The notes under the pieces: generated by a model
What the model was told of the DNA's origin: nothing
Database searches by the model: none
The model's input: the letters and a program-made list of their open reading frames with translations, nothing else
Source of the DNA: a virus
Length of the DNA: 26,621 nt
Virus record (IMG/VR): IMGVR_UViG_3300018084_000013
Span: 1 to 26,621 of that record
Direction: 5' to 3' (one strand)
Position numbers and translations under genes: made by a program
Shown: positions 1 to 24,996 of the stretch, one piece after another
Layout: each line of letters starts with the position of its first letter
Numbering within the stretch: position 1 is the first letter of the stretch

Positions 1-38
1 GAATTCGCCTTGGCAAGTGCTTTGTCGATGCTCTTCAT
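1..38 (-). CDS. 5' end of a small unknown protein, cut by the window edge
   Basis: An ATG at 38 opens a frame that stays open to position 1, giving MKSIDKALAKAN before the window ends. It has a strong ribosome site (AAGGAG, 6 nt before the ATG) and lies 20 nt behind a copy of the 32-bp repeat, exactly like four other small genes in this region, which is the main reason to believe it. Its first residues (MKSIDKAL) resemble those of the next gene upstream (MKKIDILK), so the two may be related, but the overlap is too short to be sure. No function can be assigned. Confidence 0.6.
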   Translation of the reverse strand, partial: MKSIDKALAKAN

Positions 39-58: not shown

Positions 59-90
59 GGGTCTCATTAAGGGGCATGTAATTTCTGCGA
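59..90 (-). promoter_or_regulatory. 32-bp start-associated repeat, copy 1
   Basis: Read on the minus strand this copy starts TCGCAGAAATTACAT and ends CTTAATGAGACCC. It lies 20 nt before the ATG at 38. The hexamer next to GAGACCC (CTTAAT) is a weaker match to TATAAT than in copies 2, 3 and 5. No -35 hexamer is seen at the usual distance. Confidence 0.75.
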
Positions 91-124
91 GGTAAAGTGA
101 AACCTAGAGCCCGTGTTAGGGGCT
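91..124 (-). terminator. Probable weak intrinsic terminator
   Basis: On the minus strand a 5-bp stem AGCCC/GGGCT (124-120 with 112-108, 7-nt loop) is followed by a T-rich but interrupted tract. It lies 8 nt after the stop of the 57-aa gene and just before repeat copy 1. On the plus strand the same stem is followed directly by TTTT. The stem is short, so termination may be partial. Confidence 0.4.
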
Positions 125-131
125 TTTAGGC

Positions 132-305
132 TTACTCATCCGTAAGGGCATAGTATTCATCAAGCAGATTGTGTTCTGTCAGAAACGCGTTCCATTCCTT
201 TACAGCAGCACGGTGAATCAGGAACATCGCTGTCGCGGTGGCCATGACTCCAAGTGCTACCTTGTGGTCTGAAACGAACTTCTTCAGGATATCAATCTTC
301 TTCAT
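132..305 (-). CDS. Small single-pass membrane protein, 57 aa
   Basis: The start is taken at the ATG at 305, not the longer frame from 413, because an AAAGGAA ribosome site precedes it and repeat copy 2 sits 20 nt upstream; the longer frame would run through that repeat and a terminator. The product begins MKKIDILKKF, has one predicted membrane helix around residues 17-32 (VALGVMATATAMFLIH), and then an acidic tail ending LLDEYYALTDE. Short N-basic, single-helix proteins ending in an acidic tail are common in actinophages but I know no assigned function. It is transcribed alone, judged by the repeat in front and a hairpin behind. Confidence 0.7.
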   Translation of the reverse strand: MKKIDILKKFVSDHKVALGVMATATAMFLIHRAAVKEWNAFLTEHNLLDEYYALTDE

Positions 306-325
306 GATAAAATTCCTTTCGTTGG

Positions 326-357
326 GGGTCTCACTATACCCCATGCAATTCTTGCGA
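326..357 (-). promoter_or_regulatory. 32-bp start-associated repeat, copy 2
   Basis: Minus-strand copy starting TCGCAAGAATTGCAT and ending TATAGTGAGACCC, 20 nt before the ATG at 305. The TATAGT is a good -10-like hexamer. In this copy and copy 5 the ends also form a short inverted repeat GGGTC/GACCC. Confidence 0.8.
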
Positions 358-394
358 CCCTTTTTCGAAATTTCCACCCGGGGAATTTTTGCCA

Positions 395-419
395 AACTAA
401 AACCAAACCCCATGTGGGG
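395..419 (-). terminator. Intrinsic terminator after the 29-aa gene
   Basis: Minus strand: CCCC, loop ACAT, GGGG (419-408) followed at once by TTTGGTTTTAG. The stem is only 4-5 bp but GC-only, and the T-rich tail resembles that of the terminator at 585-608 (TTTGGTTTTC). It sits 25 nt after the stop at 444. Confidence 0.5.
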
Positions 420-443
420 AATGGCTCTGAGAATCTAGGTAGG

Positions 444-533
444 TTACTTAGTTAAGAATCGTACTGCCAACACTACCAGCCACAGTCCTCCAGTGAAGAT
501 TGTGAGTGCTAGGTGGACGAGCAGTTTTAACAT
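444..533 (-). CDS. Tiny single-pass membrane protein, 29 aa
   Basis: This 29-codon frame runs from the ATG at 533 to a TAA at 446-444. The product is almost entirely one membrane helix: MLKLLVHLALTIFTGG, then LWLVVLAVRFLTK. Length alone would not support it, but it has an ideal AAGGAG site 7 nt before the ATG, lies 20 nt behind repeat copy 3, and is followed by a hairpin-plus-T terminator, the same set of signals as its neighbours. The function is unknown; membrane insertion near a holin could mean a lysis or superinfection role, but nothing in the sequence proves that. Confidence 0.65.
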   Translation of the reverse strand: MLKLLVHLALTIFTGGLWLVVLAVRFLTK

Positions 534-553
534 TGCGGTCTCCTTACATAGAT

Positions 554-585
554 GGGTCTCACTATAAGCTATGTAATTTCTGCGA
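554..585 (-). promoter_or_regulatory. 32-bp start-associated repeat, copy 3
   Basis: Minus-strand copy starting TCGCAGAAATTACAT and ending TATAGTGAGACCC, 20 nt before the ATG at 533. Its first 15 bases are identical to copy 1 and its last 13 bases to copies 2 and 5. Confidence 0.8.
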
Positions 586-608
586 AAACCAAAGCCCTTG
601 TGGGGGCT
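585..608 (-). terminator. Intrinsic terminator after the 70-aa gene
   Basis: Minus strand: stem AGCCC/GGGCT (608-604 with 597-593, 6-nt loop) followed by TTTGGTTTTC. It begins 15 nt after the stop at 624 and runs directly into repeat copy 3, so one unit ends where the next promoter-like element starts. Confidence 0.55.
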
Positions 609-623
609 CTGGCTCTTGAGACT

Positions 624-836
624 TTACTCAGGGTTGGATGGGTTCTTGTACACAGGTTCGATGAGTTCTGGGTTCAGAAGTGCACGAATCACTGCGGCTT
701 CCATCCGCGTCCATTGATGCTCTACCTCGCTAGTTGCGCTAGTGGCTGAGATCGTGACTGTATCGCGGGTGTAAGTTACTGTGATTGTTACTTCATTTCC
801 CAACTCGTTTTCAAACGTGCGTGAGAATGCAACCAT
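624..836 (-). CDS. Small unknown protein, 70 aa
   Basis: The ATG at 836 is preceded by AAAGGAAGAAC and lies 17 nt behind repeat copy 4. The first half alternates hydrophobic and polar residues (NEVTITVTYTRDTVTISAT), suggesting beta strands; the second half is likely helical (WTRMEAAVIRALLNPELI). There is no membrane segment, signal peptide or recognised domain, and no function is proposed. It is a predicted soluble cytoplasmic protein, made from its own unit between repeat copy 4 and the terminator at 585-608. Confidence 0.65.
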   Translation of the reverse strand: MVAFSRTFENELGNEVTITVTYTRDTVTISATSATSEVEHQWTRMEAAVIRALLNPELIEPVYKNPSNPE

Positions 837-853
837 GTTCTTCCTTTCGTTAG

Positions 854-885
854 GGGTCTCATTAGAAGCTATGTCAGTTTCGCGA
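854..885 (-). promoter_or_regulatory. 32-bp start-associated repeat, copy 4
   Basis: Most divergent copy: starts TCGCGAAACTGACAT and ends TCTAATGAGACCC on the minus strand, 17 nt before the ATG at 836. Length is again exactly 32 bp. TCTAAT keeps the TNTAAT pattern of a -10 hexamer. Confidence 0.7.
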
Positions 886-892
886 GATAGTC

Positions 893-932
893 AAAAACAA
901 GAGGGCATGTAGCGTTGGCTACACACCCCCTC
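893..932 (-). terminator. Strong intrinsic terminator after the 94-aa gene
   Basis: The best terminator in the window. Minus strand: outer stem GAGGG/CCCTC (932-928 with 905-901), an interior mismatch, inner stem TGTAGC/GCTACA with loop CAAC, then TTGTTTTTG. It starts 28 nt after the stop at 960 and ends just before repeat copy 4. Confidence 0.8.
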
Positions 933-959
933 ATTTGTCCGTAACTGTTGGGTCGAGTG

Positions 960-1244
960 TTACCGTAGCTTGAGCACGAAGCTCATGGCTCGTGAGGTTA
1001 TGACGTTTACTCGTTCGTATTGAAGGATTAATATGATTCCGATAATGTTTCCGGTGACAAGGATCAGTGTGTCTGGACTGGGTCGTTTAGGATGTTTATC
1101 ATCTCTTAACTTAGCAAGTTTCGTTACTTGATCCACTATCGCTGGTGTTTCTTTCGGATCGTACGGTTCCTTAGCAATTCGTGCGAGTAGTTCGTTAATT
1201 GCCTCATCGAACACGAGGTTCGGTTTGGGCTTTCGGTTAAACAT
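960..1244 (-). CDS. Conserved-type small membrane protein, 94 aa
   Basis: The ATG at 1244 follows AAGGAGACCGT and lies 16 nt behind repeat copy 5. Residues 1-60 are soluble and charged (FDEAINELLARI, then KLAKLRDDKHPKRPSPD). Residues 60-78 (TLILVTGNIIGIILILQYE) form one membrane helix, followed by a short basic tail VNVITSRAMSFVLKLR. From memory the pattern DTL...GN..GI.LI..YE..NVITS.A resembles hypothetical proteins found near the tail and lysis genes of many actinophages, but no role is known to me. It is the first gene after the holin and is followed by a strong terminator. Confidence 0.75.
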   Translation of the reverse strand: MFNRKPKPNLVFDEAINELLARIAKEPYDPKETPAIVDQVTKLAKLRDDKHPKRPSPDTLILVTGNIIGIILILQYERVNVITSRAMSFVLKLR

Positions 1245-1260
1245 ACGGTCTCCTTTGTTA

Positions 1261-1292
1261 GGGTCTCACTATAGGAGATGTTTGTATTGCGA
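1261..1292 (-). promoter_or_regulatory. 32-bp start-associated repeat, copy 5
   Basis: Minus-strand copy starting TCGCAATACAAACAT and ending TATAGTGAGACCC, 16 nt before the ATG at 1244 and beginning 2 nt after the holin stop codon. No hairpin terminator separates it from the holin, so late-operon transcripts may read through here. Confidence 0.75.
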
Positions 1293-1294
1293 CC

Positions 1295-1657
1295 CTACTC
1301 AGTTGGAGGTCGGCCCTTGACTTGAAGAAGAATCTCTCCCTTAGTCTCAAGCGCTTTAAGATCTATTGATGTCATGCGAAGAACACTATCGCCCGGTTCA
1401 TCACCCTCAGTCCACACGAGTGAACCATCATACTGACTGCCCCGAGCAGAATAAATCGACTTAAGCCAGACAACTGCGACACCAATGAAGGTGTTTAAAA
1501 CGGCGATGGTTCCATTAACTTCGGCAGCATATGAAAAATGCCAAATCTGCGCAAGTGCAAAATATAGCGCACCAATAGCAGGTAGCAACAGTTGAGCTGT
1601 GAGTTTCAGTTTGTCATACACAGCACTGCTAGGTAGCTTTGTCTGCGAAGGTACCAC
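1295..1657 (-). CDS. Holin, Dp-1-like family
   Basis: This 120-aa protein has the look of the Dp-1-type holin family: a YDKLK entry, a first membrane helix with LLPAIGALYFALAQIW (residues ~22-38), a short loop with EVNGTIA, and a second helix IAVLNTFIGVAVVWLKSIY (~51-68). A polar C-terminal tail of about 50 residues follows, which is longer than in most family members I recall. Holins assemble in the cell membrane and time lysis by releasing or activating the lysin. The start is GTG at 1657 with AAGGAG 7 nt upstream. It ends the late operon, right after the tail tip genes, a usual place for a holin; the lysin is unusually far away at 25786. Confidence 0.75.
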   Translation of the reverse strand: MVPSQTKLPSSAVYDKLKLTAQLLLPAIGALYFALAQIWHFSYAAEVNGTIAVLNTFIGVAVVWLKSIYSARGSQYDGSLVWTEGDEPGDSVLRMTSIDLKALETKGEILLQVKGRPPTE

Positions 1658-13105: not shown

Positions 13106-13981
13106 TTAGACGAAGACGATGAGCCAGTCGTCGTCCACACCAGCCGGGAAGTAGTAGCCGGCTGCTGGGCGAGCCTTGATGAACATGTTTTCCGTAATCG
13201 GAGCGGTCGGACCTGATGGCAAGTCGCCGTCGGCGTCCGTGTAGTAGATGACGCCAGTAACGGCCGGGATTGTAACGATGTCGGTGGCCGAAACATACGT
13301 TGGCTCAAGAGGCGTGGCCGACGTCATAGTACCGGTGAAGATGGCCAGAACAGCTGCCGGTGACGGCAAGGACGGATCGGTACCGACTCCACCATAAAGC
13401 ATTGCCTCGAGCGTGGCGAGAGCAGTAGAATCTACCTTGGTTGAATCAATCGTCATACTCGCAGTAGGCTTGTAGGTACTTACGGCCAAAGGAGTCGTAG
13501 TGACTTCCCAGCTGAATGTAATTGCCTCAGGTGAGTCGTTGATCGTGTTGTAAGCTTTCTCGGATGGTGCCGCGAGGCAATTCCAAACCAAGTGTAGCTT
13601 GTAACCGAGCTCAGTGTTGAGAAGATCGTTGCCAAGACGAGTACGGTATGACAGGCCAAACAACCTTCGTGGCTGCTGACCAATAGACACACCTGCTTCT
13701 GGCACTGCTGATCCATCACACTCAGCGAATTCGTCGGGGTAGGTATATGCTTCGACAGTGCACCCGAATTCCTCAACCGAGAGGAGGTTAAGGTATTTGA
13801 TGTTGTCTGCATAAGTCGCGGTTGCTTCTGCACCAGTCGGAGACTCGGTGACAGTAGTAAGACCGTTCCATGCAAAGCCGGTGTCATAAACACCGCTTGG
13901 GTTCGGTAGGTATAGAACTCCATGATCGACACCGGTCTCATAGAACCGTTCGCCGACATTGTCCCAGGTAAGAGCAGTCAC
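13106..13981 (-). CDS. Major tail (tube) protein with C-terminal Ig-like domain
   Basis: A 291-aa protein after the tail terminator gene, the standard place for the tail tube subunit. Residues 1-220 are the tube part: FYETGVDHGVLY, FAWNGLTTVTESPTG, QQPRRLFGLSYRTRLGND, LGYKLHLVWNCLAAPS, ALATLEAMLYGG. Residues ~225-291 are an added domain (PTYVSATDIVTIPAVTGVIYY, then FIKARPAAGYYFP, then DDWL) that is homologous to the end of the capsid protein in this window. It is probably displayed on the outside of the tail. The start is GTG 13981 with GAAGGGGAGTACA; no ATG is closer to the family start. Taken as the major copy because it is first, longest, and next to the chaperone. Confidence 0.82.
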   Translation of the reverse strand: MTALTWDNVGERFYETGVDHGVLYLPNPSGVYDTGFAWNGLTTVTESPTGAEATATYADNIKYLNLLSVEEFGCTVEAYTYPDEFAECDGSAVPEAGVSIGQQPRRLFGLSYRTRLGNDLLNTELGYKLHLVWNCLAAPSEKAYNTINDSPEAITFSWEVTTTPLAVSTYKPTASMTIDSTKVDSTALATLEAMLYGGVGTDPSLPSPAAVLAIFTGTMTSATPLEPTYVSATDIVTIPAVTGVIYYTDADGDLPSGPTAPITENMFIKARPAAGYYFPAGVDDDWLIVFV

Positions 13982-21186: not shown

Positions 21187-22077
21187 CTACTTCTTGAGTG
21201 CGTTGGCGAGGAGACGTGATACTTGGTCATTAGCTAGTTTCGTTGCCTGCTGCTTGCCGACACCGACTAGAACTTCGCCAGCAAACTTGCCGCCAGCTCT
21301 GGTGATCCTTGCTCCTCTTGAAGGAGGAACAACACGCGAATATTGTTGCTCAAGATTCATTCGATCGACAAGCGTCTTGAGCTCCGCATTGCTTAGTGCC
21401 TTGACGCCGCCTTTTCGTGCTTTCGAAGCAGCATTCGCAGCTGTGGTATAGTCTTGCGATGCACCTTTATTGGCTTTCGCTGCACGCGCAAGTTGACGAT
21501 TTGACCGACGAATACCCCATTTCATTCCGAGAGTTCCGTAATGCTCGATTGTGTCTTTCCCAAGAGCACTCATGTAGGCTTGATCTTCGTCCCATCCGTA
21601 TCCGTCATCTAGACGCCACTCGGGACCTTCGAAGTCATCAATCCAAAGAGCTACCGTATCGAAGTTGACCCAATTAATACCCGGGTAATCGCGTTCGTCC
21701 TCATGCGCGGGCGACTCTGGATAACCGAGCGTCAAATGTGGAATCCACTTGGGGAATTGTTCGATCGAATCATAAGCCTTTCGAATGGTGGGATTTTTGA
21801 GAAGATAAGTTCGAACCTCCTCGAGCTTCTTGACACCATATCTATGAAAGAACAAGACGTCTGCTTCTTCTTCTCCCAGCGTATCTCGGCGTTCAACCGA
21901 TAAACCAAATCGACACAATGAAGTATCAACAACATGATCGATATAATCTTCAACGGCAGTGGTGTCTTCCATCGATTCGTCAAGGAATAAAAGCGTTAGG
22001 TGGGGCACCTTCTCGCTTGAGATCTTCCACACATAGTCATCCTGTGCAGGAATGGCTACAATTGCTACTCCACGCAT
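21187..22077 (-). CDS. 2H phosphodiesterase-like protein with GMKWG tag, 296 aa
   Basis: Residues 1-155 match the 2H phosphoesterase fold (LigT/CthP-type): the two hallmark motifs are PHLTLLF (H26, T28) and PHLTLGYP (H114, T116), 88 residues apart, each in a strand as expected. Family members open 2',3'-cyclic phosphates or cleave 2'-5' and related cyclic oligonucleotides; phage members include the anti-CBASS enzyme Acb1. The substrate here is unknown. Residues 179-191 are HYGTLGMKWGIRR, shared with the 140-aa protein next to the terminase, followed by a basic, Ala-rich helical tail that contains LSNAELKTLVDRMNLEQQYSRV. The ATG at 22077 follows GGAAGGAGGCCCC. Encoded among virion genes, so it may be packaged. 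The enzyme call is firm, the role inferred. Confidence 0.78.
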   Translation of the reverse strand: MRGVAIVAIPAQDDYVWKISSEKVPHLTLLFLDESMEDTTAVEDYIDHVVDTSLCRFGLSVERRDTLGEEEADVLFFHRYGVKKLEEVRTYLLKNPTIRKAYDSIEQFPKWIPHLTLGYPESPAHEDERDYPGINWVNFDTVALWIDDFEGPEWRLDDGYGWDEDQAYMSALGKDTIEHYGTLGMKWGIRRSNRQLARAAKANKGASQDYTTAANAASKARKGGVKALSNAELKTLVDRMNLEQQYSRVVPPSRGARITRAGGKFAGEVLVGVGKQQATKLANDQVSRLLANALKK

Positions 22078-22092: not shown

Positions 22093-23712
22093 TTAGAAAA
22101 AGCTCATGAACGCTGCTTTAAGAGCTGGATCTGAACCTCCTCCTACGATTTGAAGGATGAGATTATCCACTGTCTGCGACTGAGACGCATCAGCAACAAC
22201 CAGAATATGGTGTTGAAATAGCGATAGGCTTTCGACTGTCTGGGCTTGAACTGCATCAGCGATTGTCAGAATATGATGTTGAAACAGTATAAGATTGTCA
22301 ACAGTTTGTTGTTGAACTGCGTCAGCAACTGCGAGAATATGGTGTTGTATCAATACTACGTTATCAACAGTTTGTTGTTGAACCGAATCAAATACGACGA
22401 AAACGCCAACTGGAACAAGAACTACGTTATCGATTGTTTGCAATTGAACCGCGTCAGCAACTGTCAGAATATGATGCTGAAGCAGTACAAGATTGTCAAC
22501 AGTTTGCAATTGAACCGCGTCAGCAACTGTCAGAATATGATGTTGTATTAGTGTTAGATTGTCAACAGTTTGTACCTGAGACGCATCAGAAACTATCAGA
22601 ATATGATGCTGTACTAGTACTAAGTTATCAACTGTCTGAGCTTGAGATGCATCAGCAACCACAAGCACCTGATGATGAGCTAACACTAAGTTATCGACCG
22701 TCTGTGCCTGAGCCGCGTCAGCAACTGTTAGTACTTGATGCTGAGTTAATACTAGGTTGTCGACCGTCTGAGCTTGTGCTGCATCAGCAACTACAAGCGT
22801 AACGGCCGAGTTCGTAGTTAGAACAACATTGTCAACAGTTTGAGCTTGAGCCGCGTCAGCAACTGTTAGTACTTGATGCTGAGTTAATACTAGGTTGTCG
22901 ACCGTCTGAGCTTGAGATGCATCAGCAACCACAAGCACCTGGTGCTGAGTTAATACTAGGTTGTCGACCGTCTGAGCTTGAGATGCATCAGCAACTGTAA
23001 GTGGAGTAGCAGCGAGGGGGCGAACTGCTATTAGAAGAGCTGAGTTACCAGCAGCACCCACGTCGAGCGACCAAACGCCTACATTTTCCGAAGCGGTATT
23101 AAGTTGTCTGAACGCAACTGCACCTTCTAGAGCCCCGATCACATCGCCGCCGATGATTCCAGATTCTAGGTAGTTGGTATAATTTGTTGGAGCAGCTGTG
23201 ATACCAGTAAATGAACCGGTGAGTGAAATTTCACCATTAACGCCGACAGCGATCCAAAGCGTATCCTCGGATGCCCAATCCGCCGGATCAAGCGCAGCTG
23301 GATCAGCAGCAGCTGAAGTTCCATTGGCTTTAGCAGTAGCCGTGGGTAGAGTTGTTTTATGCGCTCCCGGAATCTCCATGAGGAACATTACTGAACGAGT
23401 TGACCCAACGGTGGTAACTGTGAATGTACCTGACTCGGAACCGGTGGCATCTAACTTATATGCTGCACCAATAGATTGAATCGTAGTCGAGTTAGCAGAC
23501 TGATCAATAAACTCAGTAAAGCCACCGCCCCATGCACTGAACTCGGCATTAACAGACCCGCCAAGATATGTAACGATAATGGCCAATAGCAGAGCGCCGG
23601 GTGTATTCGGCAAGTTCGACTGATTGGGGAACGTATGCGTCGTAGTGGCAGCAGCCTGACTAGATTGTAAGAGTGAAGTCGCGGCCGCCGTTGGAATGGC
23701 CGGGAACGCCAT
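22093..23712 (-). CDS. Repeat-bearing virion-type protein, 539 aa
   Basis: Residues 1-235 form one beta-rich domain typical of phage head or tail surface proteins (FSAWGGGFTEFIDQSA; IGAAYKLDATGSESGTFTV; ALEGAVAFRQLNTASENVG; ALLIAVRPL). From ~237 to ~525 there are thirteen tandem units of about 22 residues with the core VADAxQxQTVDNLxL followed by xQHxVL or similar. The protein ends GGGSDPALKAAFMSFF. The invariant Asp and Asn residues could bind metal or shape a beta-solenoid, but that is guesswork. A single copy of the unit ends the tail-tube paralogue at 11817-12521. The ATG at 23712 follows a weak site; CTTAGGGGGGTGAACT precedes it. Probably a long surface fibre or decoration. Confidence 0.65.
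   Translation of the reverse strand: MAFPAIPTAAATSLLQSSQAAATTTHTFPNQSNLPNTPGALLLAIIVTYLGGSVNAEFSAWGGGFTEFIDQSANSTTIQSIGAAYKLDATGSESGTFTVTTVGSTRSVMFLMEIPGAHKTTLPTATAKANGTSAAADPAALDPADWASEDTLWIAVGVNGEISLTGSFTGITAAPTNYTNYLESGIIGGDVIGALEGAVAFRQLNTASENVGVWSLDVGAAGNSALLIAVRPLAATPLTVADASQAQTVDNLVLTQHQVLVVADASQAQTVDNLVLTQHQVLTVADAAQAQTVDNVVLTTNSAVTLVVADAAQAQTVDNLVLTQHQVLTVADAAQAQTVDNLVLAHHQVLVVADASQAQTVDNLVLVQHHILIVSDASQVQTVDNLTLIQHHILTVADAVQLQTVDNLVLLQHHILTVADAVQLQTIDNVVLVPVGVFVVFDSVQQQTVDNVVLIQHHILAVADAVQQQTVDNLILFQHHILTIADAVQAQTVESLSLFQHHILVVADASQSQTVDNLILQIVGGGSDPALKAAFMSFF
22138..23004 (-). repeat. Thirteen tandem 66-bp coding repeats
   Basis: The units encode VADAxQxQTVDNLxL-type 22-mers. Some are nearly identical in DNA: 22709-22776 equals 22847-22914 over 68 bases, and 22877-22929 equals 22943-22995 over 53 bases. 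Units towards the 3' end of the gene (low coordinates) are more diverged, so the 5' units look most recently copied. Confidence 0.9.
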
Positions 23713-24592: not shown

Positions 24593-24996
24593 GGTGAACC
24601 TCCGTCCAGAACCAAATTATCTTCAAGTTCAGGCTCTACAAGGTTCGGATCGACCCACTGGGTCTCTTCGCGGTAAGCATTGATCCGCCACTCAAGCTCT
24701 TTGATTTGCGAATTAAGCGCTTCGACCAAATATGCCGTCTGTGGAGGATCGAACATAATGCGAACCTTGAGATAGACATAAGTTCGAATCGCGTTATAGC
24801 GAGAATCAGTGCCGTAGAAGGTGGCCCACACGGCAGTATCATCCTCGATCATGAATCCGGCTTCTGGTCCAATGCCGAGTTGGTTTAGCACGGCGAAGGC
24901 TGTGTTGATGTGGATCAGAATATCGAGATCGAAGGCGATGTAATCTGCGTCGATCCCGAGAACCTTCTTAACACTTTTGAGGATACTTTCCTCCAT
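24589..24996 (-). CDS. Head-tail connector-like (gp6-like) protein, 135 aa
   Basis: The start is ATG 24996, with a very strong GAAGGAGGTGG upstream; the frame is open to 25167 but that part overlaps the lysin gene. The protein is mainly helical: MEESILKSVKKVLGIDADYIAFDLDILIHIN-type N-terminus with 'lgi..dy.afD.dil.hIN.af..L.qlG', then GFMIEDDTAVWATF, RTYVYLKVRIMFDPP, and a C-terminal helix LVEALNSQIKELEWRIN. This is the pattern of gp6-like connector proteins, though in this phage the gene lies far from the capsid gene, between lysin and fibre-like genes. Alternatively it is an assembly or adaptor protein for the fibres. The tail is acidic. Confidence 0.62.
   Translation of the reverse strand: MEESILKSVKKVLGIDADYIAFDLDILIHINTAFAVLNQLGIGPEAGFMIEDDTAVWATFYGTDSRYNAIRTYVYLKVRIMFDPPQTAYLVEALNSQIKELEWRINAYREETQWVDPNLVEPELEDNLVLDGGSP

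Follow-up and report, generated by a model that had tools for sequence, protein, structure and literature searches.

Five copies of a rigid 32-bp element, each in front of a very small gene in a viral DNA fragment, belong to a widespread class of putative promoters that co-occurs with a phage-encoded, single-chain, two-barrel RNA polymerase. On sequence evidence alone, these elements are most likely the promoters of that polymerase, although the fragment itself does not reach the polymerase gene and shared descent of the phage clade remains the main caveat. The finding offers a testable answer to the question of what DNA such polymerases recognize.

The window analyzed here is the whole 26,621-nt stretch of an IMG/VR virus fragment. 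Its recognizable genes lie on the minus strand, with structural and lysis genes followed by small ORFs at the low-coordinate end. A sequence-only reading had noted five start-associated 32-bp repeats at this end, and this observation is confirmed, as all five are present at the reported coordinates on the minus strand. We refine the layout to TCGC-N7-ACA-N5-hexamer-GAGACCC (4+7+3+5+6+7 = 32) with no length variation, although the ACA block reads GCA in copy 2. The elements and the features around them are as follows, where scores are those of the matrix described below and RNA starts are predicted.
59..90, minus strand: element 1 (TCGCAGAAATTACATGCCCCTTAATGAGACCC), score 41.4; hexamer 66-71, predicted RNA start near 65; heads ORF 1-38
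326..357, minus strand: element 2 (TCGCAAGAATTGCATGGGGTATAGTGAGACCC), score 33.7; hexamer 333-338, predicted RNA start near 332; heads ORF 132-305
554..585, minus strand: element 3 (TCGCAGAAATTACATAGCTTATAGTGAGACCC), score 43.8; hexamer 561-566, predicted RNA start near 560; heads ORF 444-533
854..885, minus strand: element 4 (TCGCGAAACTGACATAGCTTCTAATGAGACCC), score 22.4; hexamer 861-866, predicted RNA start near 860; heads ORF 624-836
1261..1292, minus strand: element 5 (TCGCAATACAAACATCTCCTATAGTGAGACCC), score 30.2; hexamer 1268-1273, predicted RNA start near 1267; heads ORF 960-1244
1..38, minus strand: start of a 55-aa ORF (MKSIDKALAKAN...), cut by the window end and complete in the extending contig L008
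132..305, minus strand: 57-aa ORF, PHROG 12653 (unknown function)
444..533, minus strand: 29-aa hydrophobic ORF (MLKLLVHLALTIFTGGLWLVVLAVRFLTK)
624..836, minus strand: 70-aa ORF, weak match to PHROG 12635
960..1244, minus strand: 94-aa ORF, PHROG 5818 (unknown function)
91..131, minus strand: spacer with a hairpin (-12.3 kcal/mol), terminator-like end of the unit of element 2
358..443, minus strand: spacer with a hairpin (-23.7 kcal/mol), terminator-like end of the unit of element 3
586..623, minus strand: spacer with a 12-bp hairpin (-19.2 kcal/mol), terminator-like end of the unit of element 4
886..959, minus strand: spacer with a 14-bp hairpin followed by a T run (-29.0 kcal/mol), terminator-like end of the unit of element 5
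1295..1657, minus strand: holin-like ORF (PHROG 9233), the first gene before the array, carrying no element

GAGACCC alone occurs 12 times in the window against 2.8 expected, but only these five sites are full elements. When a matrix trained on 70 elements from other phages was applied, the five sites scored 22.4–43.8, whereas the next site in 26.6 kb scored −20 and the best of 200 first-order shuffled windows reached 14.5. Each element heads a one-gene unit, consisting of a leader with a ribosome site, an ORF of 29–94 aa, and a stable hairpin before the next element. The distances from the end of GAGACCC to the start codon are 20, 20, 20, 17, and 16 nt for elements 1 to 5. The claim that none of the structural genes has the element holds for the window. 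A contig identical to the window in 11,851 of 11,853 shared bases (L008, IMGVR_UViG_3300021081_000033) adds 1,825 nt beyond window position 1, including the rest of the first small gene, and shows no further copy. No σ70-type pair of hexamers, with a −35 hexamer 16–18 nt before the −10 hexamer, was found at any of the five elements, and an Rfam search of the window gave nothing. Incidentally, GAGACC in each element is a BsaI recognition site, and these phages thus keep many such sites in place.

The element is widespread. At a matrix score of 10 or more, the Streptomyces phage Scarif has 13 copies, pSt2402 has 8, and ReqiPoco6 has 12 within 50 kb of its sequence, all on the gene strand. A blastn search with the consensus hit 215 phage records, which comprise Arthrobacter 86, Gordonia 55, Streptomyces 54, contig89 12, Rhodococcus 4, Microbacterium 3, and one other. 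An exact-pattern scan of IMG/VR returned at least 120 stretches. In contrast, phiC31 has no element at the matrix threshold and no polymerase of the kind described below, so the idea of a phiC31 early promoter was dropped. Literature searches, including the Scarif, Gordonia, and Arthrobacter phage papers, showed no mention of such an element, and the promoter class appears undescribed as far as the searched literature goes.

Copies also expose probable errors of annotation. Annotated gene starts sit inside or right behind the element at 24867, 26467, and 27040 of the Scarif record and at 13387, 13978, 15688, 16315, 20504, and 22230 of the ReqiPoco6 sequence L202, several of them on the ATG made by TATAATGAG. 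The real starts are probably ~20–30 nt further on.

The phages with the element encode a two-barrel RNA polymerase of about 920 aa. Scarif gene 88 (921 aa), annotated as an RNA-dependent RNA polymerase, belongs to PHROG 4291 and has the active-site motif of cellular RNA polymerases, ADFDGD. DFDGD is present in all 34 homologues read, and ADFDGD is invariant in 26 aligned proteins. N-terminal helix-turn-helix (HTH) segments match HTH_23 and σ70 region 4 above Pfam cut-offs. In an AlphaFold2 model of the Streptomyces phage homologue (pLDDT 79), residues ~225–760 match QDE-1 (Z up to 13.0), plant RDR2, and the phage polymerases P23-45 gp64 and P74-26 gp62 (Z of 11.9 for the latter), the QDE-1 and P23-45/P74-26 matches having Z of 11–13, so the predicted fold has two double-psi β-barrels. 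On the other hand, the N-terminal 230 residues modeled alone gave no fold match below E 0.001.

A tblastn search found the polymerase in only 250 of 50,697 phage records, which comprise Arthrobacter 95, Gordonia 55, Streptomyces 54, Lactococcus 13, contig89 12, Curtobacterium 7, Rhodococcus 4, Microbacterium 4, and a few more. These counts nearly equal those of the element, with ratios of element to polymerase records of 54/54 in Streptomyces, 55/55 in Gordonia, 4/4 in Rhodococcus, 12/12 in contig89, and 86/95 in Arthrobacter. As an independent test, 33 IMG/VR contigs of 38 kb or more were picked by the element alone, and 32 of them encode PHROG 4291. The 33rd ends a few kb after the primase-polymerase gene and shows no helicase either, so it is probably truncated before the helicase/polymerase region. 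Two long relatives of the window, G016 and G015, carry both elements and polymerase.

Co-occurrence alone, however, cannot single out the polymerase, because portal and primase-polymerase genes track the same clade almost as well. A rank comparison of element divergence with protein divergence does not favor the polymerase clearly over helicase or DNA polymerase either. Ten divergent genomes share, besides structural genes, a primase-polymerase, a helicase, a single-strand binding protein, VRR and Cas4 nucleases, DUF6353 proteins, a few unknown proteins, and the polymerase with its small neighbor gene. Within this conserved non-structural core, the polymerase is the only recognizable transcription enzyme. 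The link is therefore strong in context but not proven by co-occurrence.

In order to see if the element persists with divergent polymerases, all gapped 4-mer pairs were enumerated without any motif as input in genomes whose polymerase is 38–55% identical. In most of them, the top pairs are again TCGC/T...TATAAT and ACA...TATAAT at the same distances on the coding strand, whereas three weaker cases (G011, G014, and BitterVaud1) came out only with a relaxed pattern. The consensus per genome is TCGCAtattTTACA.GGCCTATAaTGAGACC in Scarif, TCGCAaGAAttACA.GGcCTtTAaTAGAaCC in Yotsuba (Curtobacterium), TCGTAAAAAtTACAtGG.aTATAATAGAAA in the genome G006, TCGCGAaaTattCA.cTCCTATAATGAAA in the genome G012, tTTTAAgTTTTACATACCCTATAATGAAAgg in P078 (Lactococcus), and TCGCGAt.aAAACATcGCtTATaATGAA in BitterVaud1 (Bifidobacterium). 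So the ACA-N5-TATAAT part is the most general, the TCGC box varies, and GAGACCC is a local form of a purine-rich start. A relaxed scan over 12 genomes and the window gives 142 sites forward and 4 reverse.

The polymerase is also encoded in at least 153 contigs of bacterial genome assemblies, mostly of gut Firmicutes, and long chromosomal contigs among them suggest prophages. Around 80 of these copies, chosen by the polymerase only, TCG[CT]-N7-[AG]CA-N5-TATA[AG]T occurs 10 times forward and 0 times reverse, while the other 48 spacings total one forward and four reverse. The relaxed pattern gives 83 forward and 6 reverse sites, and 68 sites in 53 loci lie 886–1,486 nt (median 951) before the polymerase reading frame.

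These polymerase-proximal copies are mostly followed by a hairpin and a T run, and bear on where the RNA would start. In 63 of 68, a stem of 5 bp or more begins at the first base behind the hexamer, whereas shuffled downstream sequence reaches equal stems in about 5. The strongest stem starts at that base in 24 of 68 and within 3 nt of it in most of the rest, and the arms differ between loci while pairing is kept. Because outer pairs are often G-U into the T run and the sequences are related, the resolution is only about 3 nt. A similar test on mixed phage elements was only suggestive (z of 2.7 at +1). The conserved short unit, an element followed at once by a hairpin of ~25–60 nt and a T run just upstream of the nuclease/polymerase genes, is seen in up to 53 of 80 bacterial loci (near 2,000–2,115 in the loci L240, L254, L263, L302, L304, and L310), and ~950 nt before the polymerase gene in the genomes G006, G007, G012, and G013 and in ReqiPoco6 (L202:45794). 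A search of eight such loci found no Rfam family, and the RNA could be a primer, a regulator of the polymerase, or an attenuator.

Elements also head tRNA-like genes in two phages, so the signal acts in transcription. ReqiPoco6 has a tRNA-Ala gene starting 8 nt behind a hexamer, and G006 has a tRNA-Cys-like gene starting 4 nt behind one. In both tRNA-like genes (L202:14636-14711 and L204:19313-19385), the tRNA 3′ end runs into a T run, so that the tRNA may double as the terminator stem. A σ −10 box needs a start 6–8 nt downstream, which would cut into these RNAs. By inference, the hexamer more likely abuts the start site, as in T7-type promoters.

We therefore favor, with good but not full confidence, the view that each element is a promoter for the PHROG 4291 polymerase. 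In this view, the TCGC(A/G) and ACA blocks, at about −25 to −22 and −14 to −12 from the RNA start, would be the specificity contacts, probably made by the HTH domains fused to the polymerase. The AT-rich hexamer (consensus TATAAT) would be the stretch that melts, and RNA would start at or within about 3 nt of the purine behind it, the G of GAGACCC. Each promoter would make a short transcript with a ribosome site, one small ORF, and a hairpin terminator. The analysis itself establishes the element, its rigid spacing, strand and position, its co-occurrence with the polymerase, and the active-site motif and predicted fold of that protein. That this polymerase rather than another core protein reads the element, that transcription starts there and depends on the polymerase, the contacts, the exact start site, and the presence of the polymerase in the phage of this fragment are inferred.

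The interpretation offered by the sequence-only reading is thus partly supported. Of its suggestions (promoters read by an altered polymerase, an activator-dependent class, or sites for a regulator), the first is the best supported, except that the polymerase is most likely phage-encoded rather than a modified host enzyme. Its reading of the hexamer as a −10 box is doubtful.

The rival that remains possible, though unlikely, is that host RNA polymerase reads the hexamer as its −10 box, helped by a phage activator that binds TCGC/ACA in place of a −35 box. TATAAT is indeed the host −10 consensus, no −35 box is present, and an upstream box about 30 nt before a σ-type start is where an activator would sit. 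However, the same spacing serves phages of actinobacteria and of Firmicutes, whose hosts differ, the conserved core contains no recognizable activator but only small unknown proteins, and the hairpin stems and tRNA-like genes start too close to the hexamer for a σ −10 box. An activator-dependent host promoter is nevertheless not excluded.

An operator or stoperator for a phage repressor or silencer is much less likely. Many asymmetric copies in one orientation are also seen with cluster A stoperators, but the element lies nearly always just before a gene or RNA start with constant spacing, never inside the structural genes of the window, and includes an AT-rich hexamer at the start. The least likely alternative is an RNA leader or translation signal, which the constant distance to start codons with good ribosome sites would suggest, because the element also heads tRNA-like genes and hairpin RNAs without ORFs, and most conserved bases would lie upstream of the RNA.

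A more speculative possibility, which we regard as tentative, is that the polymerase is packaged in the virion and injected. These elements would then be the first promoters used, letting the phage express many tiny host-takeover genes without host RNA polymerase, and the same enzyme would make the conserved hairpin RNA just upstream of its own gene, with a promoter code (TCGC-N7-ACA-N5-TATAAT, start at the next purine) shared from actinophages to gut Firmicutes prophages. The homologue in Lactococcus phage 1706 (orf75) is annotated as a structural protein, and ReqiPoco6 copies that label, which hints at a packaged polymerase. A window protein (21187-22077) has HYGTLGMKWGIRR at residues ~178–190 (Pfam DUF7211, below cut-off), and the N-termini of PHROG 4291 polymerases have HYG..R.SGRYPWGSG; the similar HYG...WG tags might mark proteins for packaging. 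At 22093-23712, the window also encodes a 539-aa protein with many near-identical repeats of about 22 residues (VADASQAQTVDNLVLTQHQVL) and no PHROG match, whose position suggests a fiber-like virion protein.

How one-chain two-barrel RNA polymerases, relatives of the presumed ancestor of all cellular polymerases, choose their start sites is largely open. The element is a sharply defined candidate promoter with hundreds of natural variants, next to one polymerase family that reaches from soil actinophages to prophages of gut bacteria. It also gives a ready way to find unannotated short genes and RNAs in these phages and to correct misplaced gene starts.

Among known systems, the middle promoters of T4 (MotA/AsiA) likewise have an upstream box instead of a −35 hexamer plus a TATAAT-like hexamer, but no MotA or AsiA relative was identified here, and the likely RNA start is too close to the hexamer. 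The sequence-only reading had likened the element to the start-associated sequences of some mycobacteriophages, but with different sequence. Those of cluster K mycobacteriophages (PMC3203893) are also repeated and oriented just before gene starts. Their consensus GGGATAGGAGCCC is absent from the window at up to 2 mismatches, and we found no polymerase link described for them. The cluster A stoperator sequence GGTGGMTGTCAAG is at chance level, with one match with 2 mismatches in the window against 1.0 expected.

YonO of SPbeta (PMC5467207) is a phage-encoded one-chain two-barrel RNA polymerase of about 100 kDa that transcribes a phage gene set. It transcribes the late structural operon from one start, and its promoter was stated to remain undetermined, whereas here many separate putative promoters head small genes and structural genes lack them. 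The closest system is that of Thermus phage P23-45 (PMC10770324), which has two such polymerases, each with its own promoter motif upstream of mapped starts of a subset of phage genes, and related phages keep or lose motif and polymerase together. The P23-45 motifs are described as AT-rich and GC-rich and are backed by ChIP-seq and cappable-seq, whereas the element described here rests on sequence only, spans phages of two bacterial phyla, and accompanies a polymerase that carries fused HTH domains and is not fused to the tape measure. On present evidence, the element would work like the P23-45 system.
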